A stretch of 64,000 bases of DNA from contig CP136061.1 of assembly GCA_032622095.1 (NCBI GenBank), forward strand, positions 14,399,287 through 14,463,286, written 5' to 3'. Positions 1,549-56,042 of the stretch are shown in pieces (positions within the stretch are counted from its first letter, which is position 1; each line of letters begins with the position of its first letter). The translations under genes and the position numbers were made by a program. The notes below the pieces were generated by a model. It had not been told where the DNA came from. It was given only the letters and a program-made list of their open reading frames with translations, and made no database searches. The DNA is from Siphonodentalium dalli (taxonomy: Eukaryota; Mollusca; Scaphopoda; Gadilida; Siphonodentaliidae).

Positions 1549-2345
1549 GCGAAAACAATGCACATATGTGACCAGCCCTATCAAACCCAGTCGTAAGTCG
1601 GGATTTTTTTACCCTGTGCCAATGCATTCTCTTATATATGCGAGTCGACCATAGGTCGCCTCGAATTTATAAGAGAATGCATTGGCCTAACAATGTTTTA
1701 CAATTTTAATAATTTTTTCTTGTATTCTTTAACAATTTTATAATTTCACCCATACATAGCCCCAGACAAACATGAGCAGACGATACTCTTCTATATGCTT
1801 CTATATATGCGTGGGGCTCCCTGCACTGGCCTGCAGGTTAATGGCTGTTTTTTTTATTTTATGTCCTAAAAATTGTAAGAAACATTTATTTAAAAAAAAT
1901 GATAAAAAATTGGTAGGCCAATGCATTCTCTTATATATGCGAGGCGACCTATGGTCGACTGGCATATATAAGAGAATGCATTGGCACAGGGTATAAAAAT
2001 CCCGACTTATACGACTGGATTTGATATGGCGGGTCACATATAACTGTCGTCTCCCTGGTCCATGTGAGGCTCAACACGGGAGTGTCACCAGCGACAATGC
2101 TATATGGCCAGGGAGATTTAACCCTTTCTATACTAAATCGATTCTTTCATTCAGTTAAGCAATGCACGCCGGAGTGGTCTATTATTAATTTAGAGCGGTG
2201 TTATAATGTGATAAAAGCAGACGACATGTTAAAAGTGCAGAATGATCCCTAGTTATTGAAGTTACTGTTCAAATAATAAGTTCAACAAGCGTGTGTTGAA
2301 CTTATGAACTGAACATTCATATTGGATAACTACACACCAATAATG
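1549..2345 (+). mobile_element. dispersed element X, copy 1, interrupted by a P element
   Basis: The left flank GCGAAAACAATGCA (to 1562) and the right flank AACTGTCGTC... (from 2041) are contiguous in the second copy at 2612-2645, so they were one sequence before insertion of the element at 1567-2038. The right part continues with GTGTGAGGCTCA-like sequence, a GAGATTTAACC / CTATACTAAATCG module and a hairpin built on AATAAGTTCAACA (about 2270-2310). Related sequence occurs at 2600-3720, 23640-23740 and, inverted, 58150-58430. It has no coding capacity, and its outer limits are uncertain. Confidence 0.55.
1567..2038. mobile_element. palindrome element P, copy A (complete)
   Basis: Terminal inverted repeats begin TGTGACC and end GGTCACA, and continue inward with CAGTCG-TAAGTCGGGAT and CCCTGTGCC. 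Two 69-bp hairpins (1618-1686 and 1917-1985) lie just inside the termini in mirror orientation. The middle (about 230 bp) is AT-rich with a short GGGGCTC / AGCCCC module. TA dinucleotides flank the ends at 1565-1566 and 2039-2040, consistent with a TA target-site duplication. There is no transposase, so it would be non-autonomous. Confidence 0.8.
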
Positions 2346-2556
2346 ATTTAGAATAAAAAAGGTTAATATGCATTTATGTGACGACCACTTATAATTTACC
2401 TAAATAATGTTAATATTGGCTGATTGTTACACAATTATTATATAAGAATTTAAAACTTCTAGTTCCAAAATATGGACTAATGGAAATAAACATATTGATT
2501 AACCAAGTATGAGTGCATGCACATCAGCCAACTTACTCGATGCATCTCAGTGCAAA

Positions 2557-2569
2557 GGGGGGGGGGGGG
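2557..2569 (+). repeat. poly-G tract
   Basis: Thirteen consecutive G. Similar G runs occur at about 4838-4850, 21861-21867, 39196-39265, 29754-29762 and 63385-63394. Confidence 0.95.
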
Positions 2570-2599
2570 TCTCTCAGTGTCTCACGTGTACCCCTATGG

Positions 2600-3720
2600 A
2601 GCCCGAGACAGCGAAAACAATGCACTGATAACTGTCGTCTGCTTGGGTCCGTGTGAGGCTCAGCACGGGAGTGTTAAGCCCCTGTCACACTCAGGTCGGC
2701 GCTTGCATTGCGCTGCAAAAGTATCAAAGCGCACACATAAACGCACTAAGGTCTCCAAGAACCGATTGGTGACGCAGTGGACACTGGCTACGACGGGCGA
2801 GGGTCTCCATGGTCGCCCATAGGCACCAGAGCGCCGCGCTTGTTTTGTGCATGCACAAAACAAGCGCAGAGGCTCTGCGTTCTGACCAAGGCGTAGTAAG
2901 CTTACTGCAGTTGCAGATGAATTTTTGCTGTGACCACGAGTAGCGTGTATCAGTCCTTGCTACGTCAGCGGGGCGCTCATGTCGTTCGCGTTGCGCTGTC
3001 GTGGCGACGATACTGTGCCTGGTCAGAACGCCGAACATCTGCGCTTGTTTTGTGCATGCAAACGCGGCGCTCTGGCGCTCAGAGGCGATCACGGGGACCC
3101 TCTCCCATCCTAGCCAGTGTCAACTGCGACGTTACTGCGTCAGCAATCGGCTCTTAGATACCTTAGTGCGCTTTGCTCTGCGCTTTGATACGTTTACATC
3201 GCAATGCAAGCCCCGGCCTGATCGCAGCGGAGTGTGACAGTGATTTAATCGGACAGCTAATCTATTGCGGATTGTTGGGTATATTCCCCACATATATTCC
3301 TAAGAACTGACTATGACTGGAGAACGCAGGAGACGCTATTTATACTCACCGCGCCCGCACAGAGAGCGTTTTGCAAACGTATTGAGAACGTACTAGCAAT
3401 ACAATGACAGCGACTTGAACGCAATAAGAGCGTGAGACTTGACAAAGTAGGAACGCAAATAGGAGCATACTTTGTTTTAAAAGTTTGACAATTTGGGACA
3501 GTTTTCTGCGCTCCTCCTGCGTGTTACTCATATTTTGGTACTTTTGCAGCGCAGTGCAAGCGCCGCCTGAGTGTGACAGGGGTTTTACTAGCTACAATCT
3601 GTGATCAGTGAGATTTAACATTTTCTATACTAAATCGGTTATCCCCGTGAGGGAAATGTTTGTTGAACTTATTATCAACATTTACTATGGGATAGCTACA
3701 CAAACTGGCCGACTTGAGGC
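2600..3720 (+). mobile_element. dispersed element X, copy 2, interrupted by foldback element Y
   Basis: The left part (2600-2678) has GCGAAAACAATGCACTGATA and ACTGTCGTCTGCTTGGGTCC. The right part (3583-3720) has GAGATTTAACATTTTCTATA and TTGTTGAACTTATTATC, matching copy 1. The 904-bp Y element sits between them. The join corresponds to the uninterrupted stretch at 2085-2110 of copy 1. Confidence 0.5.
2679..3582. mobile_element. GC-rich foldback element Y
   Basis: The outer ends are inverted copies: CCCCTGTCACACTCAGG at 2679 and its complement ending GTGTGACAGGGG at 3582, both followed inward by CGGCGCTTGCA and GCGCTGCAAAAGTA. Inside, a second and longer inverted pair spans about 2685-2890 and 3010-3240, with shared blocks TATCAAAGCGCA and AAAACAAGCGCAGA and a second GAGTGTGACAG end at 3230-3240. 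The element is clearly richer in G+C than its surroundings. Open frames across it are not conserved between the arms. It has no transposase. Confidence 0.75.
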
Positions 3721-3844
3721 ATCTCAGTGCTGTCACTACTTTCATCTCTGTATCACACTCAATGAAGTCAGATCTCGTTCTAGGTTGGTTGTACCGGAAT
3801 CATGAGCATTGCTAGGGCTTGACAAACTACGTTCATGGTAACTT

Positions 3845-4085
3845 CAACAAAGGGTCATAACTCTAGAGAAAATTAAATCTTGAGCTGTATTTTGGGCTAA
3901 TGAACTCAGATACCAAATTTCATTCCATTCAGTTCAGACTTACTAAAGTTATCATTCGGAAACGACAATTGAGTGCAATTCCAACAAAAGAGCATTAATT
4001 ATGGTGAACATTGGCGGGCGGAACCAGAATTCTAACTTGACCTGTATTTTATGCTAGTAACCCGCATACCAAATTTTACATTATA
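3845..4085 (+). repeat. dispersed repeat R, copy 2 (two monomers)
   Basis: Two successive related monomers, each with CATAACTCT- or CATTAATTATGGTGA-like starts, TGTATTTT-GGCTA and ATACCAAATTT. Inverted counterpart of the repeat at 1125-1350. Confidence 0.7.
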
Positions 4086-4147
4086 GCACTACCCTCTAAG
4101 TCGACTAATGAATGCCCAAATATAATTGACGTGTTTCACAAATTAAC

Positions 4148-4632: not shown

Positions 4633-4639
4633 AACACCT

Positions 4640-5520: not shown

Positions 5521-5524
5521 CCAA

Positions 5525-7075: not shown

Positions 7076-7080
<5 letters not shown>

Positions 7081-10198: not shown

Positions 10199-10218
10199 AT
10201 CACCAGGACTGAAATATA

Positions 10219-13200
10219 AATCACCTTATGTGAGTCCTCATGTCCTGGAGCAAAAACGGTCATAGTTAACTATCAAATCACCTTATAGAGCCGGCATGTA
10301 CTGGGACAAAAACGGTCATAGTTAACTATCAAATAACCTTATAGAGTCGGCATGTACTGGGGCAAAAACGGTCATAGTTAACTATCAAATCACCTTATAG
10401 AGTCGGCATGTACTGGGACAAAAACGGTCATAGTTAACTATCAAATCACCTTATAGAGTCGGCATGTACTGGGACAAAAACGGTCATAGTTAACTATCAA
10501 ATCACCTTATAGAGTCGGCATGTACTGGGACAAAAACGGTCATAGTTAACTATCAAATCACCTTATAGAGTCGGCATGTACTGGGACAAAAACGGTCATA
10601 GTTAACTATCAAATCACCTTATAGAGTCGGCATGTACTGGGACAAAAACGGTCATAGTTAACTATCAAATCACCTTATAGAGTCGGCATGTACTGGGACA
10701 AAAACGGTCATAGTTAACTATCAAATCACCTTATAGAGTCGGCATGTACTGGGACAAAAACGGTCATAGTTAACTATCAAATCACCTTATAGAGTCGGCA
10801 TGTACTGGGACAAAAACGGTCATAGTTAACTATCAAATCACCTTATAGAGTCGGCATGTACTGGGACAAAAACGGTCATAGTTAACTATCAAATCACCTT
10901 ATAGAGTCAGCATGTACTGGGACCAAAACGGTCATAGTTAACTATCAAATCACCTTATAGAGTCGGCATGTACTGGGACAAAAACGGTCATAGTTAACTA
11001 TCAAATCACCTTATAGAGTCGGCATGTACTGGGACAAAAACGGTCATAGTTAACTATCAAATCACCTTATAGAGTCGGCATGTACTGGGACAAAAACGGT
11101 CATAGTTAACTATCAAATCACCTTATAGAGTCGGCATGTACTGGGACAAAAACGGTCATAGTTAACTATCAAATCACCTTATAGAGTCGGCATGTACTGG
11201 GACAAAAACGGTCATAGTTAACTATCAAATCACCTTATAGAGTCGGCATGTACTGGGACAAAAACGGTCATAGTTAACTATCAAATCACCTTATAGAGTC
11301 GGCATGTACTGGGACAAAAACGGTCATAGTTAACTATCAAATCACCTTATAGAGTCGGCATGTACTGGGGCAAAAACGGTCATAGTTAACTATCAAATCA
11401 CCTTATAGAGTCGGCATGTACTGGTGCAAAAACGGTCATAGTTAACTATCAAATCACCTTATAGAGTCGGCATGTACTGGGACAAAAACGGTCATAGTTA
11501 ACTATCAAATCACCTTATAGAGTCAGCATGTACTGGGGCAAAAACGGTCATAGTTAACTATCAAATCACCTTATAGAGTCGGCATGTACTGGGGCAAAAA
11601 CGGTCATAGTTAACTATCAAATCACCTTATAGAGTCGGCATGTACTGGGACAAAAACGGTCATAGTTAACTATCAAATCACCTTATAGAGTCGGCATGTA
11701 CTGGGACAAAAACGGTCATAGTTAACTATCAAATCACCTTATAGAGCCGGCATGTACTGGGGCAAACACGGTCATAGTTAACTATCAAATCACCTTATAG
11801 AGTCAGCATGTACTGGGGCAAAAACGGTCATAGTTAACTATCAAATCACCTTATAGAGTCGGCATGTACTGGGGCAAAAACGGTCATAGTTAACTATCAA
11901 ATCACCTTATAGAGTCGGCATGTACTGGGACAAAAACGGTCATAGTTAACTATCAAATCACCTTATAGAGTCGGCATGTACTGGGACAAAAACGGTCATA
12001 GTTAACTATCAAATCACCTTATAGAGTCGGCATGTACTGGGACAAAAACGGTCATAGTTAACTATCAAATCACCTTATAGAGTCAGCATGTACTGGGGCA
12101 AAAACGGTCATAGTTAACTATCAAATCACCTTATAGAGTCGGCATGTACTGGGACAAAAACGGTCATAGTTAACTATCAAATCACCTTATAGAGTCAGCA
12201 TGTACTGGGACAAAAACGGTCATAGTTAACTATCAAATCACCTTATAGAGCCGGCATGTACTGGGACAAAAACGGTCATAGTTAACTATCAAATCACCTT
12301 ATAGAGTCAGCATGTACTGGGACAAAAACGGTCATAGTTAACTATCAAATCACCTTATAGAGTCAGCATGTACTGGGGCAAAAACGGTCATAGTTAACTA
12401 TCAAATCACCTTATAGAGTCGGCATGTACTGGGACAAAAACGGTCATAGTTAACTATCAAATCACCTTATAGAGCCGGCATGTACTGGGACAAAAACGGT
12501 CATAGTTAACTATCAAATCACCTTATAGAGTCGGCATGTACTGGGGCAAAAACGGTCATAGTTAACTATCAAATCACCTTATAGAGTCGGCATGTACTGG
12601 GACAAAAACGGTCATAGTTAACTATCAAATCACCTTATAGAGTCAGCATGTACTGGGGCAAAAACGGTCATAGTTAACTATCAAATCACCTTATAGAGTC
12701 AGCATGTACTGGGACAAACACGGTCATAGTTAACTATCAAATCACCTTATAGAGTCAGCATGTACTGGGACAAAAACGGTCATAGTTAACTATCAAATCA
12801 CCTTATAGAGTCAGCATGTACTGGGACAAAAACGGTCATAGTTAACTATCAAATCACCTTATAGAGTCAGCATGTACTGGGGCAAAAACGGTCATAGTTA
12901 ACTATCAAATCACCTTATAGAGTCGGCATGTACTGGGGCAAAAACGATCATAGTTAACTATCAAATCACCTTATAGAGTCAGCATGTACTGGGACAAAAA
13001 CGGTCATAGTTAACTATCAAATCACCTTATAGAGTCAGCATGTACTGGGACAAAAACGGTCATAGTTAACTATCAAATCACCTTATAGAGTCAGCATGTA
13101 CTGGGACAAACACGGTCATAGTTAACTATCAAATCACCTTATAGAGTCAGCATGTACTGGGACAAACACGGTCATAGTTAACTATCAAATCACCTTATAG

Positions 13201-16200
13201 AGTCGGCATGTACTGGGACAAAAACGGTCATAGTTAACTATCAAATCACCTTATAGAGTCAGCATGTACTGGGGCAAAAACGGTCATAGTTAACTATCAA
13301 ATCACCTTATAGAGTCGGCATGTACTGGGGCAAAAACGGTCATAGTTAACTATCAAATCACCTTATAGAGTCAGCATGTACTGGGGCAAAAACGGTCATA
13401 GTTAACTATCAAATCACCTTATAGAGTCGGCATGTACTGGGGCAAAAACGTTCATAGTTAACTATCAAATCACCTTATAGAGTCGGCATGTACTGGGACA
13501 AAAACGGTCATAGTTAACTATCAAATCACCTTATAGAGTCGGCATGTACTGGGACAAAAACGGTCATAGTTAACTATCAAATCACCTTATAGAGTCAGCA
13601 TGTACTGGGGCAAAAACGGTCATAGTTAACTATCAAATCACCTTATAGAGTCAGCATGTACTGGGGCAAAAACGGTCATAGTTAACTATCAAATCACCTT
13701 ATAGAGTCAGCATGTACTGGGGCAAAAACGGTCATAGTTAACTATCAAATCACCTTATAGAGTCAGCATGTACTGGGGCAAAAACGGTCATAGTTAACTA
13801 TCAAATCACCTTATAGAGTCGGCATGTACTGGGACAAACACGGTCATAGTTAACTATCAAATCACCTTATAGAGCCGGCATGTACTGGGACAAACACGGT
13901 CATAGTTAACTATCAAATCACCTTATAGAGTCAGCATGTACTGTGACAAAAACGGTCATAGTTAACTATCAAATCACCTTATAGAGTCGGCATGTACTGG
14001 GACAAACAAGGTCATAGTTAACTATCAAATCACCTTATAGAGTCAGCATGTACTGGGGCAAAAACGGTCATAGTTAACTATCAAATCACCTTATAGAGTC
14101 GGCATGTACTGGGACAAACACGGTCATAGTTAACTATCAAATCACCTTATAGAGTCGGCATGTACTGGGACAAAAACGGTCATAGTTAACTATCAAATCA
14201 CCTTATAGAGTCAGCATGTACTGGGGCAAAAACGGTCATAGTTAACTATCAAATCACCTTATAGAGTCGGCATGTACTGGGACAAACACGGTCATAGTTA
14301 ACTATCAAATCACCTTATAGAGTCAGCATGTACTGGGGCAAAAACGGTCATAGTTAACTATCAAATCACCTTATAGAGTCAGCATGTACTGGGGCAAAAA
14401 CGGTCATAGTTAACTATCAAATCACCTTATAGAGTCAGCATGTACTGGGGCAAAAACGGTCATAGTTAACTATCAAATCACCTTATAGAGACAGCATGTA
14501 CTGGGGCAAAAACGGTCATAGTTAACTATCAAATCACCTTATAGAGTCGGCATGTACTGGGACAAAAACGGTCATAGTTAACTATCAAATCACCTTATAG
14601 AGTCGGCATGTACTGGGACAAACACGGTCATAGTTAACTATCAAATCACCTTATAGAGTCGGCATGTACTGGGACAAAAACGGTCATAGTTAACTATCAA
14701 ATCACCTTATAGAGTCGGCATGTACTGGGACAAAAACGGTCATAGTTAACTATCAAATCACCTTATAGAGTCGGAATGTACTGGGGCAAAAACGGTCATA
14801 GTTAACTATCAAATCACCTTATAGAGTCAGCATGTACTGGGACAAAAACGGTCATAGTTAACTATCAAATCACCTTATAGAGCCGGCATGTACTGGGGCA
14901 AACACGGTCATAGTTAACTATCAAATCACCTTATAGAGTCGGAATGTACTGGGGCAAACACGGTCATAGTTAACTATCAAATCACCTTATAGAGTCAGCA
15001 TGTACTGGGACAAAAACGGTCATAGTTAACTATCAAATCACCTTATAGAGTCAGCATGTACTGGGACAAAAACGGTCATAGTTAACTATCAAATCACCTT
15101 ATAGAGTCGGCATGTACTGGGGCAAAAACGGTCATAGTTAACTATCAAATCACCTTATAGAGTCGGCATGTACTGGGGCAAAAACGGTCATAGTTAACTA
15201 TCAAATCACCTTATAGAGTCGGAATGTACTGGGGCAAACACGGTCATAGTTAACTATCAAATCACCTTATAGAGTCAGCATGTACTGGGGCAAACACGGT
15301 CATAGTTAACTATCAAATCATCTTATAGAGTCAGCATGTACTGGGACAAACAAGGTCATAGTTAACTATCAAATCACCTTATAGAGCCGGCATGTACTGG
15401 GACAAACAAGGTCATAGTTAACTATCAAATCACCTTATAGAGTCAGCATGTACTGGGACAAAAACGTTCATAGTTAACTATCAAATCACCTTATAGAGTC
15501 GGCATGTACTGGGGCAAAAACGGTCATAGTTAACTATCAAATCACCTTATAGAGCCGGCATGTACTGGGGCAAAAACGGTCATAGTTAACTATCAAATCA
15601 CCTTATAGAGTCAGCATGTACTGGGGCAAAAACGGTCATAGTTAACTATCAAATCACCTTATAGAGTCGGCATGTACTGGGGCAAAAACGGTCATAGTTA
15701 ACTATAAATCACCTTATAGAGTCGGCATGTACTGGGGCAAAAACGTTCATAGTTAACTATCAAATCACCTTATAGAGTCAGCATGTACTGGGACAAAAAC
15801 GGTCATAGTTAACTATCAAATCACCTTATAGAGTCAGCATGTACTGGGGCAAAAACGGTCATAGTTAACTATCAAATCACCTTATAGAGTCAGCATGTAC
15901 TGGGGCAAAAACGGTCATAGTTAACTATCAAATCACCTTATAGAGTCAGCATGTACTGGGACAAAAACGGTCATAGTTAACTATCAAATCACCTTATAGA
16001 GTCAGCATGTACTGGGACAAAAACGGTCATAGTTAACTATCAAATCACCTTATAGAGTCAGCATGTACTGGGGCAAAAACGGTCATAGTTAACTATCAAA
16101 TCACCTTATAGAGTCAGCATGTACTGGGACAAAAACGGTCATAGTTAACTATCAAATCACCTTATAGAGTCGGCATGTACTGGGACAAAAACGGTCATAG

Positions 16201-19200
16201 TTAACTATCAAATCACCTTATAGAGTCAGCATGTACTGGGACAAAAACGGTCATAGTTAACTATCAAATCACCTTATAGAGTCGGCATGTACTGGGACAA
16301 ACACGGTCATAGTTAACTATCAAATCACCTTATAGAGTCAGCATGTACTGGGACAAAAACGGTCATAGTTAACTATCAAATCACCTTATAGAGCCGGCAT
16401 GTACTGGGACAAAAACGGTCATAGTTAACTATCAAATCACCTTATAGAGTCGGCATGTACTGGGGCAAAAACGGTCATAGTTAACTATCAAATCACCTTA
16501 TAGAGTCAGCATGTACTGGGACAAAATCAGTCATAGTTAACTATCAAATCACCTTATAGAGTCAGCATGTACTGGGGCAAAAACGGTCATAGTTAACTAT
16601 CAAATCACCTGATAGAGTCGGCATGTACTGGGACAAAAACGGTCATAGTTAACTATCAAATCACCTTATAGAGTCGGCATGTACTGGGGCAAAAACGGTC
16701 ATAGTTAACTATCAAATCACCTTATAGAGTCAGCATGTACTGGTCCAAAAACGGTCATAGTTAACTATCAAATCACCTTATAGAGTCGGCATGTACTGGG
16801 GCAAAAACGGTCATAGTTAACTATCAAATCACCTTATAGAGTCAGCATGTACTGGGACAAAAACAGTCATAGTTAACTATCAAATCACCTTATAGAGTCA
16901 GCATGTACTGGGGCAAAAACGGTCATAGTTAACTATCAAATCACCTTATAGAGTCAGCATGTACTGGGACAAAAACGGTCATAGTTAACTATCAAATCAC
17001 CTTATAGAGTCGGCATGTACTGGGACAAAAACGTTCATAGTTAACTATCAAATCACCTTATAGAGTCAGCATGTACTGGGGCAAAAACGGTCATAGTTAA
17101 CTATCAAATCACCTTATAGAGTCAGCATGTACTGGGACAAACAAGGTCATAGTTAACTATCAAATCACCTTATAGAGTCGGCATGTACTGGGACAAAAAC
17201 GTTCATAGTTAACTATCAAATCACCTTATAGAGTCAGCATGTACTGGGGCAAAAACGGTCATAGTTAACTATCAAATCACCTTATAGAGTCAGCATGTAC
17301 TGGGACAAAAACAGTCATAGTTAACTATCAAATCACCTTATAGAGTCAGCATGTACTGGGACAAAAACAGTCATAGTTAACTATCAAATCACCTTATAGA
17401 GTCAGCATGTACTGGGACAAAAACGGTCATAGTTAACTATCAAATCACCTTATAGAGTCGGCATGTACTGGGGCAAAAACGGTCATAGTTAACTATCAAA
17501 TCACCTTATAGAGTCAGCATGTACTGGGACAAAAACAGTCATAGTTAACTATCAAATCACCTTATAGAGTCAGCATGTACTGGGGCAAAAACAGTCATAG
17601 TTAACTATCAAATCACCTTATAGAGTCGGCATGTACTGGGGCAAAAACGGTCATAGTTAACTATCAAATCACCTTATAGAGTCGGCATGTACTGGGGCAA
17701 AAACAGTCATAGTTAACTATCAAATCACCTTATAGAGTCAGCATGTACTGGGGCAAAAACGGTCATAGTTAACTATCAAATCACCTTATAGAGTCAGCAT
17801 GTACTGGGACAAAAACGGTCATAGTTAACTATCAAATCACCTTATAGAGTCAGCATGTACTGGGACAAAAACGGTCATAGTTAACTATCAAATCACCTTA
17901 TAGAGTCAGCATGTACTGGGACAAAAACGGTCATAGTTAACTATCAAATCACCTTATAGAGTCGGCATGTACTGGGGCAAAAACGGTCATAGTTAACTAT
18001 CAAATCACCTTATAGAGTCAGCATGTACTGGGACAAAAACAGTCATAGTTAACTATCAAATCACCTTATAGAGTCAGCATGTACTGGGGCAAAAACGGTC
18101 ATAGTTAACTATCAAATCACCTTATAGAGTCAGCATGTACTGGGACAAAAACGGTCATAGTTAACTATCAAATCACCTTATAGAGTCGGCATGTACTGGG
18201 ACAAAAACGGTCATAGTTAACTATCAAATCACCTTATAGAGTCGGCATGTACTGGGACAAACAAGGTCATAGTTAACTATCAAATCACCTTATAGAGTCA
18301 GCATGTACTGGGGCAAAAACGGTCATATTTAACTATCAAATCACCTTATAGAGTCGGCATGTACTGGGACAAACACGGTCATAGTTAACTATCAAATCAC
18401 CTTATAGAGTCAGCATGTACTGGGACAAAAACGGTCATAGTTAACTATCAAATCACCTTATAGAGCCGGCATGTACTGGGACAAAAACGGTCATAGTTAA
18501 CTATCAAATCACCTTATAGAGTCGGCATGTACTGGGGCAAAAACGGTCATAGTTAACTATCAAATCACCTTATAGAGTCAGCATGTACTGGGACAAAAAC
18601 AGTCATAGTTAACTATCAAATCACCTTATAGAGTCAGCATGTACTGGGGCAAAAACGGTCATAGTTAACTATCAAATCACCTTATAGAGCCGGCATGTAC
18701 TGGGGCAAAAACAGTCATAGTTAACTATCAAATCACCTTATAGAGTCAGCATGTACTGGGGCAAAAACGGTCATAGTTAACTATCAAATCACCTTATAGA
18801 GTCAGCATGTACTGGGGCAAAAACGGTCATAGTTAACTATCAGATCACCTTATAGAGTCAGCATGTACTGGGGCAAAAACGGTCATAGTTAACTATCAAA
18901 TCACCTTATAGAGTCGGCATGTACTGGGACAAAAACAGTCATAGTTAACTATCAAATCACCTTATAGAGCCGGCATGTACTGGGGCAAAAACGGTCATAG
19001 TTAACTATCAGATCACCTTATAGAGTCAGCATGTACTGGGGCAAAAACGGTCATAGTTAACTATCAAATCACCTTATAGAGTCAGCATGTACTGGGGCAA
19101 AAACGGTCATAGTTAACTATCAGATCACCTTATAGAGTCAGCATGTACTGGGGCAAAAACGGTCATAGTTAACTATCAAATCACCTTATAGAGTCAGCAT

Positions 19201-20971
19201 GTACTGGGGCAAAAACGGTCATAGTTAACTATCAAATCACCTTATAGAGCCGGCATGTACTGGGACAAAAACGGTCATAGTTAACTATCAAATCACCTTA
19301 TAGAGTCAGCATGTACTGGGACAAACAAGGTCATAGTTAACTATCAAATCACCTTATAGAGTCAGCATGTACTGGGGCAAACAAGGTCATAGTTAACTAT
19401 CAAATCACCTTATAGAGTCAGCATGTACTGGGGCAAACAAGGTCATAGTTAACTATCAAATCACCTTATAGAGTCAGCATGTACTGGGGCAAACAAGGTC
19501 ATAGTTAACTATCAAATCACCTTATAGAGTCAGCATGTACTGGGGCAAACAAGGTCATAGTTAACTATCAAATCACCTTATAGAGTCAGCATGTACTGGG
19601 GCAAACAAGGTCATAGTTAACTATCAAATCACCTTATAGAGTCAGCATGTACTGGGGCAAACAAGGTCATAGTTAACTATCAAATCACCTTATAGAGTCA
19701 GCATGTACTGGGGCAAAAACGGTCATAGTTAACTATCAGATCACCTTATAGAGTCGGCATGTACTGGGACAAAAATGGTCATAGTTAACTATCAAATCAC
19801 CTTATAGAGTCAGCATGTACTGGGGCAAACAAGGTCATAGTTAACTATCAAATCACCTTATAGAGTCAGCATGTACTGGGACAAAAACGGTCATAGTTAA
19901 CTATCAAATCACCTTATAGAGTCGGCATGTACTGGGGCAAAAACGGTCATAGTTAACTATCACATCACCTTATAGAGTCAGCATGTACTGGGGCAAAAAC
20001 GGTCATAGTTAACTATCAAATCACCTTATAGAGTCGGCATGTACTGGGACAAAAACAGTCATAGTTAACTATCAAATCACCTTATAGAGCCGGCATGTAC
20101 TGGGGCAAAAACGGTCATAGTTAACTATCAGATCACCTTATAGAGTCAGCATGTACTGGGGCAAAAACGGTCATAGTTAACTATCAAATCACCTTATAGA
20201 GTCAGCATGTACTGGGGCAAAAACGGTCATAGTTAACTATCAGATCACCTTATAGAGTCAGCATGTACTGGGGCAAAAACGGTCATAGTTAACTATCAAA
20301 TCACCTTATAGAGTCGGCATGTACTGGGACAAAAACAGTCATAGTTAACTATCAAATCACCTTATAGAGCCGGCATGTACTGGGGCAAAAACAGTCATAG
20401 TTAACTATCAAATCACCTTATAGAGTCAGCATGTACTGGGGCAAAAACGGTCATAGTTAACTATCAAATCACCTTATAGAGCCGGCATGTACTGGGACAA
20501 AAACGGTCATAGTTAACTATCAAATCACCTTATAGAGTCAGCATGTACTGGGACAAAAACGGTCATAGTTAACTATCAAATCACCTTATAGAGTCGGCAT
20601 GTACTGGGACAAAAACGGTCATAGTTAACTATCAAATCACCTTATAGAGTCGGCATGTACTGGGACAAAAACGGTCATAGTTAACTATCAACTCACCTTA
20701 TAGAGTCAGCATGTACTGGGGCAAAAACGGTCATAGTTAACTATCAAATCACCTTATAGAGTCGGCATGTACTGGGACAAAAACGGTCATAGTTAACTAT
20801 CAAATCACCTTATAGAGTCAGCATGTACTGGGGCAAAAACGGTCATAGTTAACTATCAAATCACCTTATAGAGTCAGCATGTACTGGGACAAAAACGGTC
20901 ATAGTTAACTATCAAATCACCTTATAGAGTCGGCATGTACTGGGGCAAAAACGGTCATAGTTAACTATCAC
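10219..20971 (+). repeat. 56-bp satellite array, about 192 units (10.7 kb)
   Basis: Unit of 56 bp: ATCACCTTATAGAGTCGGCA, then TGTACTGGGACAAAAACGGT, then CATAGTTAACTATCAA. The first unit (about 10219-10275) is diverged (TATGTGAGTCCTCATGTCCT) and marks the left edge. The right edge is abrupt, at TATCACATTTCATT near 20971. Variation concentrates at a few sites: TCGGC/TCAGC/CCGGC, GGGACA/GGGGCA, AAAACGG/AAACACGG/AAACAAGG, and ACGG/ACAG/ACGT. The left 1 kb is nearly pure TCGGC...GGGACA, and mixed types follow. One unit near 15700 lacks one base. The palindrome TAGTTAACTA lies in each unit. All frames contain stops, so it is not coding. Three units make 168 bp, close to a nucleosome repeat. Confidence 0.98.
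18841..20340 (+). repeat. 20-unit (1,120-bp) higher-order repeat inside the satellite
   Basis: The series of diagnostic variants from about 18850 to 19150 (CAGATCACC, TCGGC+ACAGTC, CCGGC, CAGATCACC, CAGATCACC) reappears in the same order at about 19970-20270, offset 1,120 bp = 20 x 56. The first position carries CACATC instead of CAGATC. Confidence 0.85.
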
Positions 20972-21330
20972 ATTTCATTTTGGTTTTGAACCTCAAACCA
21001 CACATGTAAATTCTCGACTGTGTCATGTTCAGGAATCGAAATGAGTTAATAACATGTCATGTGAATGAAATGCTTTTTTATAAACAATTTAACCCTTCAA
21101 TGACTGGAGCTTCCTGTATGTACTTTTCCGAACCCCCTCTGCCAATGCATTATGCATACTTATGGACCCTCTCATATATAATATGATACATTGGCCTAAC
21201 AATATTTACCGTGACATTGTAAGCCAGAGCATTATCTTAAGCATGCGAGTTTCCATGTGGGAGACTCACGTACACAAGTTATTATACTGTCACAAGATAT
21301 GTAACCCTGTACCCAACAGAACGGCCCTGT
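20972..21330. other. no gene seen; decayed hairpin
   Basis: Unique sequence after the satellite. A degenerate relative of the P-element hairpin (GCCAATGCATTATGCATACT ... ATACATTGGCCTAACAA) lies at 21142-21200. Confidence 0.5.
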
Positions 21331-21546
21331 GCCAATGCATTCTCTTATATATGCGAATCGACCATAGGTCGCCTCGCATATATAAGAGAATGCATTGGCT
21401 TAACACATTAAAATTTATAAAATTGTTAAAGAATGTAAGAAAAATGGTAAAAAGTGTTAAAAAAAGATTTTTGTTATGCCAATGCATTCTCTTATATATG
21501 CGAGGCGACCTATGGTCGACTCGCATATATAAGAGAATGCATTGTC
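21331..21546. mobile_element. palindrome element P, copy B (short)
   Basis: Two 69-bp hairpins, 21331-21399 and 21478-21546, in mirror orientation: the first centre reads GAATCGACCATAGGTCGCC, the second GGCGACCTATGGTCGACTC. CCCTGT precedes and CACAGGG follows. The middle is only about 78 bp of A/T-rich sequence, so the internal GGGGCTC module is absent. The outer TGTGACC termini are not seen. Confidence 0.75.
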
Positions 21547-21559
21547 ACAGGGCATAACT

Positions 21560-22030
21560 GTAACTATCACAATGTGGTCAAGGAGCCGGTTCCAATGATA
21601 TCCATATTTGTATGGTTCTATTGAGACAGACCGAAGATATTTTAGGCTGTTGAAGCTTTATTTGGCCGGTTTTGGCCGGTTTGTTGGGTAAAGGGTTAAT
21701 CGCGCTCAAATGTTCAGAGACACATTGCGATAGTATTTACTAGTTCCCTGTTGGCCCCTTTTCTGTAGTCGTTTCACGGTGTCATAGTTAGACGTGTGAA
21801 TGTTATTGACGTTTCCTTTGTCAGACTGACCATTCATGTCGGCGTTCATACGGCATTCGGGGGGGGGTGGCATATCGTGTGATATAGTGATACGTGTGTA
21901 TGGTGTCAGTGTTATACCACTGTCAGTCAGTAACATCATATCATGTTTTAAAGTCATGTTTTAAGTCATGTTTCAAAGCCTACTGTCAACTATAGTCACA
22001 GAGGAACATCTAACACACACATGTATAATA
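21560..22030. other. no gene seen
   Basis: AT-rich; includes TTTGGCCGGTTTTGGCCGGTT at 21661-21681 and a GGGGGGG run at 21861. Nothing coding is recognised. Confidence 0.5.
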
Positions 22031-23420: not shown

Positions 23421-24100
23421 ACCCTTAGTTGCAACAGCTCGCGGTAATGCATGCATGCAATGCAGATTGGTAAAATAATGTTTTACGATAGTCAAATGTA
23501 GCTACAATAGATACACATAGCTATTGTAGCTATAGTTGGTATTGTCAGACCTGTTTCTGGTGAAGTCCGAATATTTCCCTAAAATTTATTCAGTCGTTAT
23601 CCCCGTACTGCATATTAACCCCTTGGTTACCCTTTATTTACCCTTTGTGGAGCCGCATACGGAGAACAATGCACTGGTAAATGTCGTCTGATTGGGTCAA
23701 TGTTAGGCACCATATGGGAGTGTTATGTAACCCTTTCATGGCGGGAGCAGCGGTGGTGCATACTTAAATATACATAGCTGTCTGACTGCTGTCGTCTGCT
23801 TGTTTCCTGCTGAATAATATGTCTAACTATTAAGCAACCATTGTGGAATGTTGCACGAACGTCGTTTGGAAATATACATAGCTGTCTGACTGCTGTCGTC
23901 TGCTTGTTTCCTGCAGGAGAATATGTTCTGCCCTTGACGCATATACTAATAGTTGGCTATACTTAGTGGGAGCAGTTATTTGTATTCTTGTGGTGAACCA
24001 TACATTATGATGTCACATTGGATGTCCGTTAGTCCAAGATGGGAGGTCTAACACCAGTCCTAACTTGCAGCGAACTGCTGCCAAATCTTAATTGTGATGA
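23421..24100. other. no gene seen; local duplication
   Basis: The block AAATATACATAGCTGTCTGA-CTGCTGTCGTCTGCTTG occurs at about 23766 and again near 23871. An X-like fragment (GAACAATGCACTGGTAAATG and GTCGTCTGATTGGGTC) lies at 23660-23700. Confidence 0.5.
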
Positions 24101-39300: not shown

Positions 39301-40010
39301 TTCAACTCCCAATGAATGGTGATGTTTTGATGATAGATTCAGATGGACTAAATTTTCTCTCTCGCTTACTTTGGTTGAAAATTCCGGTGTGTTTCTCGAG
39401 TGTTCTAACTATTAGCATTCTTAATTCTAACTGCTTTGGATTACCATACATTGTGTAATTACTCTGTTTACAGTTGGAAAATACATTTGCCAATGAACAG
39501 TGTACACCGTTGTATTGCAACATGCAGTATAGGACAATACATGTATAGGCACTTCCTTGCAATATCATTATATCGCAACATAATTAGAAATCGTTACTTC
39601 AATACATACATATTCATCTTCATGTTACAAAGATATTTACAAATGGATGGATAAGTGGGAAACGTTCCGAATATTAAAAGTTTTATATGGAAAGTCATTC
39701 TGATAGAAGAACAAATTGAAACATATGCATATTTGATTGTATATGACCTGTTTGTTATATACAAATGAATACACAGTTGTCGTCCTTTGTTAAAAATAGG
39801 GATCGGTACACATGATCAAAAGGTGTCGTCTGCTAATAATTGAATGTTCTTGTCTCCACCTTCTCGTTTGTAGTTCTTTGAATGTATTAACTGAGTATTC
39901 GTTAATTATGCATTTCATGACAAGAGCTGCGCTGGTACAGCATTACATGTCACATAGAGAGCCTTGTATATTAAGAAAATGCACTGGCTTGCAATGTCAA
40001 GGCCCATATT
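39301..40010. other. no gene seen
   Basis: AT-rich unique sequence; frames of 60-88 codons only. Confidence 0.5.
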
Positions 40011-40150
40011 GTTAGGCCCATGTAGTATATATATGTTAGGCCCATGTAGTATATATATGTTAGGCCCATGTAGTTTATATATGTTAGGCCCATGTATTAT
40101 ATATATGTTAGGCCCATGTAGTATATATATGTTAGGCCCTTGTAGTATAT
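40011..40150 (+). repeat. 24-bp minisatellite, 6 units
   Basis: GTTAGGCCCATGTAGTATAT-ATAT with a period of 24 bp. Frames on both strands show 8-residue repeats because 24 is a multiple of 3. The array abuts the left end of P copy D. Confidence 0.95.
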
Positions 40151-40151
40151 A

Positions 40152-40801
40152 TGTGACCCGCCATATCAAATCCAGTCGGAAGTCGGGATTTGTTAACCCT
40201 GTGCCAATGCATTCTCTTATATATGCGAGTCGACCATAGGTCGCCTCGCATATATAAGAGAATGCATTGGCCTAACAATTTTTTATCATTTTTTTTAAAT
40301 AAATGTTTCTTACAATTTTTAGGACATAAAATAAAAAACATCAATTACCCTGCAGGGAGCCCCACACATATATAGAAGCATATATAAGAGTGTCGTCTGC
40401 TCATGTTTGTCTGGGGCTCTGTATGGGTGAAATTATAAAATTGTTAAAGAATACAAGAAACAATTATTAAAATTGTAAAAACTTGTTAGGCCAATGCATT
40501 CTTTTATATATGCGAGGCGACCTATTTTATAATTTCAACCATACAGAGCCCCAAACAAACATGAGCAGACGACACTCTTCTATGTGTTTCTATATATGTG
40601 TGGGGCTCCCTGCAGGGTAATGGATGTTTTTTTTATTTTATGTCCTAAACATTTGTAAGAAACATTTATTTAAAAAACATGATCAAAAATTGTTAGGCCA
40701 ATGCATTCTCTTATATATGCGAGGCGACCAATGGTCGACTCGCATATAAGAAAATGCATTGGCACAGGGTAAAACAATTCCGAATTCCGACTGGATTCAC
40801 A
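40152..40801. mobile_element. palindrome element P, copy D (enlarged foldback)
   Basis: The left terminus TGTGACCCGCCATATCAAAT is intact (TA at 40150-40151). The left hairpin is at 40204-40272. The internal module runs forward (ACATAAAATAAAA, CCCTGCAGGGAGCCCC, GTCTGGGGCTCTG), reaches half a hairpin (to about 40525), then repeats in inverted order (CAGAGCCCC, GGGGCTCCCTGCAGGG, TTTTATTTTATGTCC) to a second hairpin near 40696-40763. The right terminus has lost the GATATGGCGGG part. The result is a larger inverted repeat than in copies A and F. Confidence 0.8.
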
Positions 40802-40967
40802 TATATGAGTCTCCCGGTGGGAAATTCGCATATATAATATAATGCATTTGGTATAGGTTTTCGCAAAATTGCAGAAAGCTCCAATGATGGAAGGCCTAAT
40901 AGAGGTTTATGTGTTCTACATAATGGCATGCACCTTCATATGACACACAGTCTGCATGGCTGCATTG

Positions 40968-45865: not shown

Positions 45866-46789
45866 TTTGTGTATATAACTTACATGAATCTGGTTAGGTG
45901 CGTTCGATTTTCTCCACGGAGGTAACGTTGTTAGTGAACAAAGCCATTTTCGATTACGTCGTTACTGCACTAGAAACATCTTACAGTAACGCCCATCTAT
46001 TAGCTCTCTGTATACCGTGGTCATGTAACATGTCGCGACAACATGTGTATATATACATTACATGCAACCGTTCAGAATGCCATTTCCTAACCGATAATAT
46101 GAGTTCGATTTGTTATATGAAAATAACCCCTGCTTTAGCGGACATGTTTAGTTTCCATTTGTCGTTATATTAGTGCACTAGAAACAACCTGCATTAACAC
46201 ACATGTATCAGATCCCTGTACCATGTTGCGAGATTATAAATTATATGCAGCTTTTAAGATTACCATGCACCACCAAAGTCGATTTGATAAGGGAATGTAC
46301 CTCCGTTACGGAACCACGCTTGACTCCATTACCTCGCGTATGCACAAGAACAATCTCAAATTGACATTCATGTATATACATGTATCAGCTCCCTATGTGA
46401 CATGGCTATGCAATAATGTGACACAATGTGTTCGTGTGGATTACTTGTAGCTGTTCAAAGTTACACTGTCAAAGCGATGAAATGCGTTAGACTTCTAACC
46501 CAGTTAGTGAATCAGGGGAGACCCAATTACCTTGTTGGTATACCCTGCACTTCTTACTGAGTGGAGCCTTATCGTCAGTTACTATGACCGACCTCGTTAT
46601 CAATCATCGACATTTTAAAAGGACATCCCTCATTGCCATATAGAAACATGTTTATCCAAAACGCGTTTGGCTGGTCACAGCGCCGCTACAATGGTTCTTG
46701 TGTGCGATCGATTTCCACGAAGGTATACATGTAACTGAGTGAAGCTAACTAGAGTCCCTTCCATCGTTAATGCATCAACACATCCGATA

Positions 46790-47125
46790 TTAACACCAAC
46801 TCACACGTAAATGGTTGTGTACCATGGTGACTGAGTTTGCACAATTAACACCCACTCACACGTAAATGGCTGTTTATCATGGCGACTGAGTTTGTACAAT
46901 TAACACCCACTCACACGTAAATGGTTGTGTATCATGGTGACTGAGGTTGCACAATTAACACCCACTCACACGTAAATGGCTGTGTATCATGGTGACTGAG
47001 TTTGTACAATTAACACCCACTCACACGTAAATGGCTGTTTATCATGGCGACTGAGTTTGTACAATTAGCACCCACTCACACGTAAATGGCTGTGTATGAT
47101 GGTGACTGAGTTTGTACATTTAACT
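46790..47125 (+). repeat. 55-bp tandem repeat, 6 units
   Basis: AACACCCACTCACACGTAAA-TGGCTGTGTATCATGGTGAC-TGAGTTTGTACAATT with period 55. The alternating variants (GTTTATCATGGCGA and GTGTATCATGGTGA) repeat in pairs. Confidence 0.93.
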
Positions 47126-47159
47126 CTTCCATGACTGTAATCTTCAACAATTCTGCGAA

Positions 47160-47600
47160 AACCCTGTGCCAATATTATCTTATATATGCGAGTCTCTAAT
47201 GTATAGGAAGATTCTCATATATAAGATAGTACGTTAGCCTAACAAATGATTACCTTGACCTTGTAAGCCAATGCATTATCTTATAAACGTAAGGTTCCAT
47301 ATGGGAGAAGACTCGCATATATATGGAAAAACACTGGATCTATGCAGAGTAATACCCTGTGCCAATGCATTCTCTTATATATGCGAGTCGACCACAGGTC
47401 GACTCGCATATATAAGAGAATGCATTGGCATAACAACTTTTCATCATGTGTTATTATTTTTTACAATTTTTTAATAATTGTTTCTTATATTCTTTAACAA
47501 TTTTAATTACACCCATTCAGAGCCCCAGGAAAACATGAGCAGACATAACTCAATACACATGCTTCTTTATATGTGTGGGGCTCCCTGCAGGGTTATATGT
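47160..47600. mobile_element. palindrome element P, copy E (left half; perfect hairpin)
   Basis: The hairpin at 47361-47429 has two 33-bp arms that are exact reverse complements around the 3-base centre ACA; other copies differ at one or more arm positions. It is preceded by CCCTGT and followed by TAACAA and the internal module in the orientation of copy A (AGAGCCCC, ATGAGCAGAC, GGGGCTCCCTGCAGGG). The second hairpin and right terminus are missing. A more decayed hairpin lies at 47167-47242. Confidence 0.75.
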
Positions 47601-48494
47601 ATGTTCCACCAGCGCAGCCCCCACCACAAGCCCCGTCGTGAAAGGGTTAAATTACATGCTTGAAGCTTCCGCGGCGACACACCAAGGTCAATGATTACTT
47701 TGGCATTAGTGAACCGGTCTATACTCCATTAGTAAACCGGGCTATACTCCATTACCTCGTTAGTATTCGTGGTGCGTCTTACTCCCCGGAGCCTTAACAT
47801 AAATTCGTATTCTCAACTTCATTATCAACCATCAATTAACCGCGGATCTCCAGTGTCAAATAGCAAACATACAATCCAAATGTTACTGTACCACCGCTAC
47901 AAATTCGATCGTGTGTGTTCGGTTTGCTCCACGAGATTGTAACTCTGTTAGTGAACCAAGCCAGTTCTCATTACGTTGTTACTGCACTGGAAACATCGTA
48001 CTGTAATGCCCTCATATTGGCTCCCTTTTACGTAACGGTGAACATGTAACACATCGAGAGACTTCTTGCAAGGCCGATGGTGCGTTAGAGTTTTACGTAA
48101 AAGTAACTCCGTTAGTGAACATAAGTCGACGTCATTACCTCAGATTGAAACCCGGGTATCAGCTCCTTTATAAAGTTGATGCGCAGCAAGGCGACATCAT
48201 GTGTCCATATAACTAGCATATAAATGTATATGAAATGCATTCGATTCCTAACTGGGTTAGTGGACCACGCTATGCCCCATTACCTCGTTAGTACATCGGA
48301 ACGTCTTACTACAAGGCGGAGCCTTAACACAAATTAATATGCTCAACCTCATTATGAACCAGCAATTAACGCCGGATCTGCATTGATCACCGATACACAT
48401 TATCACCTTAGACTCGACTCACGGCCCAATCAATGAACATATACAATGGGGCTGGCATCCCACCACATAATGAATGCCACAATGGATCCGACAA

Positions 48495-51680: not shown

Positions 51681-51689
51681 CACCAATAT

Positions 51690-53277
51690 ATGCACAAAAT
51701 GTACCATATTGGCATCCAGGGTAAACTTCTGAGATGGTTTGAAAATTATCTTTCTAATCGCAAACAGTGTACAGTCCTGAATGGACGGGAGTCTTGTATA
51801 AAAAGGGTTTCAGCTGGAGTTCCACAAGGAGATTCATTGGGCCTCGGCTATTTAACAATTTTATAAATGATATTGTAGAGAATATTGAATCGAATATTAG
51901 ACTCTATGCAGATGACACATCGTTATTTATAACTGTTGAAGATGACCTAATGGCGGCCAAAATGTTAAACCGAGATTTACAGCGAAATAAATGGCAGGTA
52001 AAATGTTATCCATCTAAAACAGAATCATTAACAGTAGGTAATAAAGACCTGGTCATAAATTACCCTCAATATCTATATAACAAGGAAATTAAAGAAGTTG
52101 ATAATCATACGCACTTGGGTTTGATGTTTCATTATTCTGGTTGTTGGGATTTTCATGTATACAATATTTTTGATAAAATATGCCCAATGATTAATTGTCT
52201 TCGATGCTTAAAATACAAACTAACCAGACATGCACTGGATACCTTGTATATGTCCTTTATTCTGCCAATTTTTGACTATGGTGATCTGATGTTGGATAAT
52301 TGTTCTCAAGGCCTAATTACTAATCTTGAATCATTGCAGCTGGATGCCCTGGGAACCATCAGTGGCATCATTAGAGGGACAAGTCATAATCTTATATACA
52401 CGGAAAATGGTTATATCCCTTTAAAAGATAGGCATAATAGCAGAAAAACTATTGTATTTCACAAGGCTGGTATCAAAAATGAGTTGATATTCCATGCGCA
52501 GTGGAGATAATATATCTAGATATGCGCATGTGACTAATCCCTTAAATTCCTACTTAAAATCATTCTTCCCATCTGGTATAGAATTATTGAATAGGTTAGA
52601 TCCATCGGCGCGCTCTTGTCTTTCGATATCCAAATTGAAAAATGAACTCAGCAAAATGGACAATAGACCTCCGATATACATTACTGTAGGTGACAGATGA
52701 AACCAAATCATTCATTCGAAAATTAGAAATGCCTGAATTAGATTCTCAAAAACTATCGAGGTTTCTTACTGATGATCCTAGTTGTAGATGTGGAAATATG
52801 TATGAAGATGTTGAGCATTACTTTTTTTTACTGTCCTTTATATAGTCAACAAAGAGAAGCTTGATGTAAAAGATTACATGAATTGTTTGTGAACATAACC
52901 ATTGAAATTCTCCTGCACTGGGTCAAAATATGAACTGTGACATTTGTAAGATAGTCCATGAATATTTCAAATCCACCAATAGATCCAATACCAAACAATG
53001 AGTTCATACTCAATATGTTTCCATATGAATTAATGTCCACCTTACTGCTCAAATCCCCCCACATCATCTGAAACATCCCTTATTCAGATGACCCATACAG
53101 GCAGGCCTCTGTACCCCCTGATTGTCGGTGTTTGCACATTTGCACTTTTGTGTTGGTCACGTTATGTAATGTTTTGTTATTGTCTGTTGATGGGTCCGGG
53201 CCTATATAGGTTTGCCTGTTGCCTTGACCTGGTACTATGTCATACATTTTGCACAATAAACCATTTTTTATCAATAA
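51690..53277 (+). pseudogene. LINE reverse-transcriptase fragment, frameshifted, inserted in a 40-bp minisatellite
   Basis: The frame from about 51690 reads GIQGKLLRWFENYLSNRKQ and VSAGVPQGDSLG (RT motifs before the catalytic site). A frameshift near 51840 leads to GPRLFNNFINDIV and LYADDTSLF, the YxDD catalytic motif, then NHTHLGLMF and FDYGD in the frame ending 52510. A second shift leads to NISRYAHVTNPLNSYLKSFF (52501-52700). A third leads to PSCRCGNMYEDVEHYFF with a downstream CPLY, the CxC...H...C tail. AATAAA at 53257 lies close to the 3' end. The endonuclease and the first RT motifs are missing. At least three frameshifts make it non-functional. Known family role: target-primed reverse transcription. 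Confidence 0.85.
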
Positions 53278-54270: not shown

Positions 54271-54274
54271 GTTT

Positions 54275-54725
54275 CATCAAGGCCTCGTGCATTTGTTATA
54301 CATAACGAAAACGCGACACATGTGTTATACATGACGATATCGCGACATCAAGGCCTCGTGCATGTGTTATACATGACGATAACGCGACATCAAGGCCTCG
54401 TGCATGATGTGTTATACATGACGATATCGCGACATCAAGGCCTCGTGCATGTGTTATACATGACGATAACGCGACATCAAGGCCTCGTGCATGTGTTATA
54501 CATGACGATAACGCGACATCAAGGCTTCGTGCATGTGTTATACATGACGATAACGCGACATCAAGGCCTCGTGCATGTGTTATACATGACGATAACGCGA
54601 CATCAAGGCCTCGTGCATGTGTTATACATGACGATAACGCGACATCAAGGCCTCGTGCATGTGTTATACATGACGATAACGCGACAATGCCTCGTGCATG
54701 CGTTATACGTGACGATAACGCGACA
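54275..54725 (+). repeat. 42-bp minisatellite, about 10 units
   Basis: CATCAAGGCCTCGTGCATGT-GTTATACATGACGATAACGC-GA. Alternation of GATATCGCG and GATAACGCG occurs in the first units only. As 42 is a multiple of 3, one frame gives a 14-residue repeat (VLYMTITRHQGLVH) in a 171-codon open frame. I judge it non-coding because repeat copies are identical at the DNA level and no non-repeat domain is attached. Confidence 0.93.
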
Positions 54726-54829
54726 CAAAATTGACACGCCTCTGATGAGTCAGTGTTTTAATCAGAACTGGTTGACGATATACACACACCTGGCATTATG
54801 GTGCCGGACATTTGCAGAGTGGGGCTATA

Positions 54830-54930
54830 TAGCGTAACTAAATTCGTCCTATCTGGAGCTCATTCTGCATGGCCTCTTCTACTGTGGAATACCTAAACTC
54901 ATATGTAAGTTCCCAGATGGTGAATATTGT
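54830..54930 (+). repeat. dispersed repeat S, decayed fragments
   Basis: GGGGCTATATAGCGTAACTA and AATTCGTCCTATCTGGAGCT-CATTCTGCA (54821-54871), then GTTCCCAGATGGTGAAT (54909-54925): both halves of the S pattern, out of order. Confidence 0.5.
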
Positions 54931-55080
54931 GATGTGTGTACCAATTTGGCACCTCGATTATGCAATGTGTCGTCTGCCAACTTGTGGATTTAGAGAAACT
55001 AAGAAGAAAGAAACTAAGAAGAACTAATACATTTGTTAATTTCCCAATAAAGATACTGCCCAGAGAAGATGGGGCCCAAA

Positions 55081-55440
55081 CCCAGAAATGATGGTGAATT
55101 TAGTAATGCATGCTAGCGCGATGTGCTCTGACGACCTCGTTCTGAAATGATGGTGGATTTAGTAATGCATGCTAGCGCGATGATGGTGGATTTAGTAATG
55201 CATGCTAGCGCGATGATGGTGGATTTAGTAATGCATGCTAGCGCGATGGTGGTGGATTTAGTAATGCATGCTAGCGGGATGATGGTGGATTTAGTAATGC
55301 ATGCTAGCGCGATGATGGTGGATTTAGTAATGGATGCTAGCGCGATTATGGTGGATTTAGTAATGCATGCTAGCGCGATGTGCTCTGATTGGTGGATTTA
55401 GTAATGCATGCTAGCGCGATGTGCTCTGACGACCTCATTC
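55081..55440 (+). repeat. 33-bp minisatellite, about 8 units, derived from repeat S
   Basis: ATGATGGTGGATTTAGTAAT-GCATGCTAGCGCG with period 33. The outer two units extend to GATGTGCTCTGACGACCTC[G/A]TTCTG, the S-type end. This array therefore uses the left half of S, whereas 28048-29322 uses the right half. The plus-strand frame with MMVDLVMHASA repeats is repeat-derived. Confidence 0.9.
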
Positions 55441-55485
55441 TGTAAATGTAGGGCACCATATTGTCAGGCCTGTGTATATAGACAA

Positions 55486-56042
55486 ATGCGACCCGCCATA
55501 TCACCCACAGGGAGCCTCACACAGATGGAAGCATGCACTACATAGTGTCGTCTGCTCCAGGCTGTATGGGGCTCTCTATGGGTTAATATACCCGCCATAT
55601 CAAATCCAGTCGTAAGTCGAGATTGTTTTTACCCTTTGCCAATGCATCTCTTATATATGCGAGTCGACCATAGGTCGCCTCGCATATATAAGAGAATGCA
55701 TTGGCCTAACAATTGTTATCCTTTTTATTAAATAAATGTTTCTTACAATTTTTAGGACATAAAATAAAAAAAACATTCATTACCCTGCAGGGCGCCCCAC
55801 ACATATATAGAAGCATAAAGAAGAGTGTCGCCTACTCATGTTTGTCTGGGGCTCTATATGGGTGAAATTATAAAATTGTTAAAGAATACAAGCAAAAATT
55901 ATTAAAATTGTAAAAAATTGTTAGGCCAATGCATTCTCTTATATATGAGGCGACCTATGGTAGACTCGCATATATAAGAGAATGCATTGGCACAGGGTAA
56001 AACAATCCCGACTTACGACTGGATTTGATGTGGCGGGTCACA
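55486..56042. mobile_element. palindrome element P, copy F (complete, with a short P remnant)
   Basis: A shortened P (55488-55600) holds GACCCGCCATATCACCC, GTGTCGTCTGCTC and GGGGCTCT without hairpins. It is followed by the full element from 55601 (CCCGCCATATCAAATCCAGT) with hairpins at about 55638-55705 and 55926-55990, the internal module in the orientation of copy D's left part, and the right terminus GGCGGGTCACA followed by TA (56043-56044). The left terminus lacks TGTGA. Confidence 0.8.

Follow-up and report, generated by a model that had tools for sequence, protein, structure and literature searches.

Miniature inverted-repeat transposable elements (MITEs) of the Stowaway-like or Tc1/mariner type duplicate a TA upon insertion and carry typical termini. 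The account of coral MITEs in PMC2872659, where this class is also named, gives the terminal motif CC[C/T]T as a hallmark of piggyBac or TTAA MITEs and states that internal regions are usually what differs most between MITE families. The closest precedent that we found in the literature for the elements described below is CMITE of Acropora corals, reported there to have an internal region better conserved than its terminal inverted repeats (TIRs) and, through a nested insertion, to have given rise to a new mobile composite, CMITE-IN (PMC2872659). Here we analyse a family of short palindromic elements, P, in the 64,000-base stretch of DNA whose first lines are given above (the window, meaning that whole stretch), which has 40.7% G+C and many minisatellites and looks like part of an animal-type eukaryotic genome. 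P is most probably a non-autonomous, MITE-like, cut-and-paste DNA transposon that inserts at a duplicated TA.

Structure and insertion of family P

All six loci of the family contain a 69-nt hairpin, as a first-pass annotation of this DNA had claimed, and ten complete P-type hairpins were found, whose pairwise identities range from 94.0 to 100%, with a mean of 97.1% over the 45 pairs. The 21-nt pattern of the hairpin arm, with at most three mismatches, matches 19 times (100 shuffles give an expectation of 0.00), one match falling in an older relative, O, and four P hairpins folded as DNA reach z = -11.2 to -15.7 against shuffles; the arm-pattern count and these scores together reject a chance origin of the hairpins. 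The TIR of P is about 120 nt long and consists of an outer arm starting with TGTGACC, the motif CCCTGT, the 69-nt near-perfect palindrome and GGCCTAACAA, and its arm, CCCTGT and hairpin can be aligned at both ends of copies A, D40 and F55. In A, D40, F55 and B21, the four copies with a pair of hairpins, the two are mutually inverted, just as had been proposed, but their mirror-image arrangement is no separate plan: the end alignment explains it, because both hairpins belong to one long TIR. The single asymmetric base pair said to orient each hairpin has the same sense in nine of the ten and is absent from E47, whose stem is perfect. Between the hairpins lies an A/T-rich middle, which carries an older repeat, G, in all copies but B21.

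The most direct support for P as a transposon-like family that is non-coding, has defined ends and is flanked by TA, as the earlier description had it, comes from copy A, 472 nt in length, and its paralogous empty sites. Copy A lies inside an older G repeat, which its flanks match on both sides (the clear part of the left match being short, at about 16 nt). Once A and one TA are removed, these flanks align without a gap across the insertion point to two uninterrupted G copies, which act as paralogous empty sites; because of this gapless alignment, copy A is, judging by the sequence comparison, an insertion with a two-base duplication. A and D40 have TA on either side and F55 has it at its right end, so that the claim of TA at every complete end held except at the left end of F55, which is damaged; neither that end nor the cores of B21 and D40 show a TA duplication. 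P thus resembles MITEs in general in being short, non-coding and bounded by TIRs, and its target-site duplication is indicated by TA at A and D40 plus the empty sites of A. Within the same limits the TA duplication agrees with that of Tc1/mariner-type, Stowaway-like MITEs, while its ends (TGTGACC with TA) are not those of a piggyBac or TTAA MITE.

The first-pass annotation had also credited six copies with one full plan, and this did not survive. By arm profile, TGTGACC-type outer arms occur at three of the six loci (1567-2038, 40152-40801 and 55590-56042). The supposed full copy at 21331-21546 is a core, B21 (21325-21552), without outer arms and without the GGGGCTC module, and the loci at 22037-22268 and 47160-47600, taken for two-hairpin copies, are one-sided, each with a single complete P hairpin (C22 and E47). 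A common left end for these two was considered and dropped, as their breakpoints are close but different. The double hairpin at 47162-47337 belongs to O and not to P, as do another at 21135-21295 and those on either side of D40. A copy start had been placed at 55486 by merging an outer-arm fragment (profile E 0.062, below the inclusion threshold) and a free-standing G (55503-55586) with the copy that in fact starts at 55590, F55, which is oriented opposite to A. The locus at 40152-40801 does have P ends and TA flanks, but it is no plain copy: D40 consists of two inverted part-elements fused at the hairpin loop (40522/40524), and its right arm carries an internal deletion.

The GGGGCTC module, listed before as a part of P and present in all copies but B21, is a separate repeat of about 80 nt, G, which also stands free. 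Outside P it occurs at three full loci (55503-55586, 2589-2673 and 23640-23722) and as one half (2035-2083); the loci at 23640 and 2035 were left out of the profile build and were recovered at E 6e-7 and 4e-5. P carries one G, and copy A sits in another. The G module in P (40347-40432) does not fold clearly better than shuffles, 21 of 200 of which fold as well, and the free-standing G at 55503 does (z -4.5). The motif TGTCGTCTGCT, with at most one mismatch, occurs 12 times against 0.58 expected, of which four lie in G modules of P copies, three in free-standing G and five elsewhere (2216, 23790, 23894, 39824 and 54968); this spread suggests further diverged G-like repeats. A separate element of about 900 bp (2679-3582), with TIRs CCCCTGTCACACTCAGG...CCTGAGTGTGACAGGGG, adjoins the right of the G at 2589-2673; by eye, the right flank of copy A resembles an empty site of this element, with a possible TTA duplication.

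The absence of a transposase, also noted earlier, holds for the part that was scanned: outside the main tandem repeats there are 89 stop-free frames of at least 75 aa, and the 36 of them that were scanned contain no transposase domain. Sub-threshold Pfam matches to Colicin_im, DUF4234 and DUF1177 were set aside as below curated cut-offs. No autonomous relative of P was seen within the 64-kb window. P would insert at TA, duplicating it, through a transposase supplied in trans; that enzyme and its superfamily we infer.

Elsewhere in the window there is a 10.7-kb satellite (10218-20970, 192 copies of a 56-nt unit), and pieces resembling the reverse transcriptase of a retrotransposon without long terminal repeats lie at 51758-52510 and 60222-61178; the open reading frame at 60222-60737 scores just below the Pfam cut-off for reverse transcriptase, and the other pieces were recognised by eye.

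Table 1. Positions of P copies and their parts, G repeats and O elements in the window
Feature	Position	Strand	Remarks
P copy A	1567..2038	+	complete, TGTGACC...GGTCACA, TA both sides; within a G repeat
Outer arm of copy A, left	1567..1611	+	right arm 1992-2038; arm profile matches
Hairpin A_L (69 nt)	1618..1686	+	folding, stem comparison
Hairpin A_R (69 nt)	1917..1985	-	inverted relative to A_L
Right half of the G repeat hosting copy A	2039..2083	+	profile, empty-site alignment
Free-standing G repeat	2589..2673	+	paralogous empty site for A
O21, older O element	21089..21699	+	TTAA at each end (the right one uncertain); split by B21
P core B21	21325..21552	-	CCCTGT...ACAGGG with two hairpins; outer arms and G module absent; within O21
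P fragment C22	22025..22276	-	G module, AT tract, one hairpin, ACAGGG
Free-standing G repeat	23640..23722	+	second paralogous empty site for A
O40, older O element	39902..40899	-	interrupted by 24-nt array and D40; TTAA one end, CTAA other; limits by eye
P copy D40	40152..40801	+	inverted dimer, TA both sides; within arm of an O-element hairpin
Half hairpin, D40 dimer junction	40490..40522	+	break at hairpin loop
O47, older O element	47120..47650	+	TTAA-CTCTTCCATGAC...GTCGTGAAAGGG-TTAA, interrupted by E47
P core fragment E47	47355..47600	+	CCCTGT, perfect hairpin, AT tract, G module; within O47; right limit approximate
P outer-arm fragment	55487..55503	+	exact CGCCATATCA; free-standing G repeat between it and F55
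Free-standing G repeat (~80 nt, GGGGCTC module)	55503..55586	+	profile search
P copy F55	55590..56042	-	complete save first four bases of left end; TA at right end

Conservation of the hairpin

Substitutions were counted in the five other copies against the left hairpin and first middle of D40, its right hairpin being excluded. The hairpins differ from this reference at 8 of 549 positions and the middles at 70 of 816 (Fisher P 3e-9), and single copies give P values of 3e-6 (B21), 0.007 (F55), 0.025 (E47), 0.036 (C22) and 0.26 (A). Identity is below that of the hairpins both in the G module (89.0%, 15 pairs) and in the AT tract (87.9%, 15 pairs), and it is 84.1% in the outer arm (15 pairs), or 90.3% over the 10 pairs that leave out the damaged right arm of D40. 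Searches of the window with arm and G profiles revealed no P copies with diverged hairpins.

Upkeep of pairing within P is rejected: of eight stem substitutions, six break a pair, one leaves a G-T wobble and one makes a pair, and pairing is therefore not maintained after insertion. There is no sign of homogenisation between the hairpins of one element, the four same-element pairs being 95.7-98.5% identical against 94.0-100 across all 45. Read most simply, movement of the source copies required the hairpin, while the middle drifted freely. Since the hairpin stays nearly unchanged while the rest drifts, we infer that it is necessary for movement, one candidate role being that of a subterminal site for transposase binding or end pairing.

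The older relative O, nesting and alternative explanations

A second type of element in the window, O, which the first-pass annotation had overlooked, is an older double-hairpin relative of P with TTAA-type ends. The whole window was searched with a profile of fourteen hairpins, ten of P and four of O. Further diverged hairpins scored above its inclusion threshold in just two settings: at 21135-21295 and 47162-47337, which had been part of the build, and in the two flanks of D40, where the O hairpins at 39951-39990 and 40791-40848 were found independently of the build. The layout is P-like, with an arm of about 40 nt, CCCTGTGCCAAT or a near form, a hairpin, a short spacer and an inverted hairpin; the hairpins of O47 fold moderately (z -3.4 and -2.7). 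The ends are of the TTAACCCTTTCATGAC-like type, the left ones reading TTAACCCTTCAATGAC in O21 and TTAACTCTTCCATGAC in O47, the latter with CTCT. O47 and O21 each have TTAA at both ends, the right one being uncertain in O21, and O40 has it at one end; the TTAA-type terminal pattern occurs four times against 1.33 expected, a count reached by 4 of 100 shuffles. O47 starts at the TTAA that closes a 55-nt minisatellite (46789-47124), the units of which contain TTAA. Beside D40, at 40006-40152, lies a 24-nt tandem array of about six copies, whose unit by eye resembles an O hairpin arm, as if grown from one.

All three O elements hold a P, and three of the six P copies lie in an O. D40 interrupts the arm of an O40 hairpin, and the right arms of O21 and O47 are interrupted by B21 and E47. 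By length, the binomial probability of such nesting is 8e-5; by TA count it is 2e-4, or 4e-4 when the long satellite is left out. With O and G taken together, four of the six copies are nested (P 3e-6 to 2e-5). P appears to be a member of a local clan of nested palindromic elements that includes O, and it may insert preferentially, or survive best, inside O and G.

Several points weigh against P as a TA-duplicating transposon with a conserved, functional hairpin. Outer arms exist in three copies only, the left end of F55 is damaged, and the termination of three P ends exactly at CCCTGT is not predicted by simple truncation. At the TA site of copy A the G paralogues read GA and GG, so that the duplication rests on length and not on a matching target, and empty sites were found for copy A only and are paralogous, not allelic. 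As to conservation, copy A alone gives no significant difference between hairpin and middle, the Fisher test assumes independent sites, uses a single reference and ignores indels (small ones are found in four of ten hairpins), and the copies were first recognised by their hairpins, an ascertainment bias toward hairpin conservation. The nesting test is post hoc, with hand-drawn footprints in a single window.

Because three P ends (both of B21 and the left of E47) stop exactly at CCCTGT, the P core may be mobile, or arms may have been exchanged between families. In the possible but rather unlikely version that we consider first among the alternatives, the core from CCCTGT to ACAGGG would itself be a mobile MITE, and full P elements would be composites in which a core had entered a palindromic element of about 90 nt with TGTGACC ends, at a TA close to its middle, the composite then moving by its outer ends, much as proposed for coral CMITE-IN (PMC2872659). 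Besides these sharp ends, B21 and E47 are in opposite orientations and, going by weak right-arm alignments, at different points of O21 and O47, O40 being uninterrupted where they sit; TA flanks the core on both sides in A and F55, and a diverged core of like layout is found in O behind different, TTAA-type arms. Yet B21 has no duplication (GG/CA), the core of D40 is flanked by AA/TA, a profile search of the window found no coreless, arm-only palindrome, and the arms are common to the three full copies, so that the composite, if there was one, is what moved.

More doubtful is a wider form of this idea, in which the CCCTGT-hairpin-hairpin-ACAGGG core would be a cassette exchangeable between transposons with different ends and targets (TTAA in O, TA in P) and would also move naked. 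The palindromes, diverging between O and P yet self-complementary, would then be kept by selection, since extruded hairpins would serve mobility or homing into related hairpins.

A foldback-like element that owes its spread mainly to errors of replication, through extrusion of the hairpin, cleavage at its tip and a switch of template, and not to a transposase, seems improbable to us. The inverted dimer D40, broken at a hairpin loop, the strong folding of P hairpins and the resemblance of the 24-nt array to an O hairpin arm (seen by eye, with profile E of 0.05 to 0.7, below the inclusion threshold) would fit it, but the dimer is seen once only, and the defined ends and two-base duplication at A indicate transposase-type insertion. 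We consider it very improbable that P belongs to the host, as a family of hairpin RNAs or regulatory genes that duplication has spread: its stems are very stable, up to 33 bp, and across P and O together both sides changed in 7 of 33 pairs, where shuffles give 3.8 (3 of 500 reach seven), and in 13 cells, where shuffles give 4.5 (0 of 500 reach 13); sliding the partner gives 2 to 4 pairs, and relatedness of rows inflates this control, but the copies have different flanks and defined ends, stem pairing within P is not maintained, and the window has no Rfam match at gathering thresholds. That Rfam result also argues against a known RNA family, and a tRNA-derived short interspersed nuclear element is rejected, ARAGORN finding no tRNA gene in the window.

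A source in bacteria, phages or plasmids finds no support: exact-pattern scans of viral and genome contig collections gave nothing, nor did a blastn search of phages and plasmids with 1500-2200; these collections are not animal genomes and have little bearing on novelty. Six sequence strings had no occurrence in the searched literature.

Comparison with described elements

If P is the TA-inserting, MITE-like transposon that we favour, it is otherwise an ordinary small genomic parasite; what sets it apart is that an internal palindrome is its best-conserved part and that a like hairpin layout stands behind two kinds of ends. P and O therefore offer a testable case for how short elements switch transposase dependence and why they are nested. 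With Stowaway-like or Tc1/mariner MITEs P shares small size, TIRs, absence of coding sequence and TA duplication, and it differs from them in its TGTGACC terminus and in that no transposase that could tie it to them was seen in the frames scanned. To our knowledge TGTGACC matches no Tc1/mariner terminus.

Any likeness to piggyBac or TTAA MITEs, as characterised in PMC2872659, is on the side of O, which has TTAA and, at some ends, CC[C/T]T; P has TA instead. Foldback elements have long TIRs with internal repeats, and the TIR of P is about 120 nt long and contains a palindrome, subrepeats having been considered as far as the tandem-repeat list goes. The foldback-type Tm1 of root-knot nematodes, in the description given in PMC3169594, has similarly long, composite TIRs, but these vary in length and are accompanied by 9-bp duplications, whereas in P the duplication is of 2 bp and each TIR contains a single palindrome. 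KolobokP, which has been reported in seven animal phyla, is also composite-like, with terminal units that seem to be excisable; according to PMC9587614 it differs in having direct, not inverted, long terminal repeats of about 450 or 660 bp and in encoding a transposase and a nuclease.

CMITE comes nearest, even if, as described in PMC2872659, it is about 100 bp long, duplicates TTAA and has another conserved internal region, whereas P is flanked by TA and carries a palindrome within each of its TIRs; 39 nt of the consensus printed there, with at most three mismatches, have no match in the window. Both are small and non-coding, and CMITE too, when families are compared, has an internal region that is more conserved than its TIRs (PMC2872659). 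The TTAA and CCCTTT ends given for CMITE resemble the ends of O, and CMITE-IN, where a nested insertion created a new composite mobile element (PMC2872659), parallels the nested palindromic elements described here.

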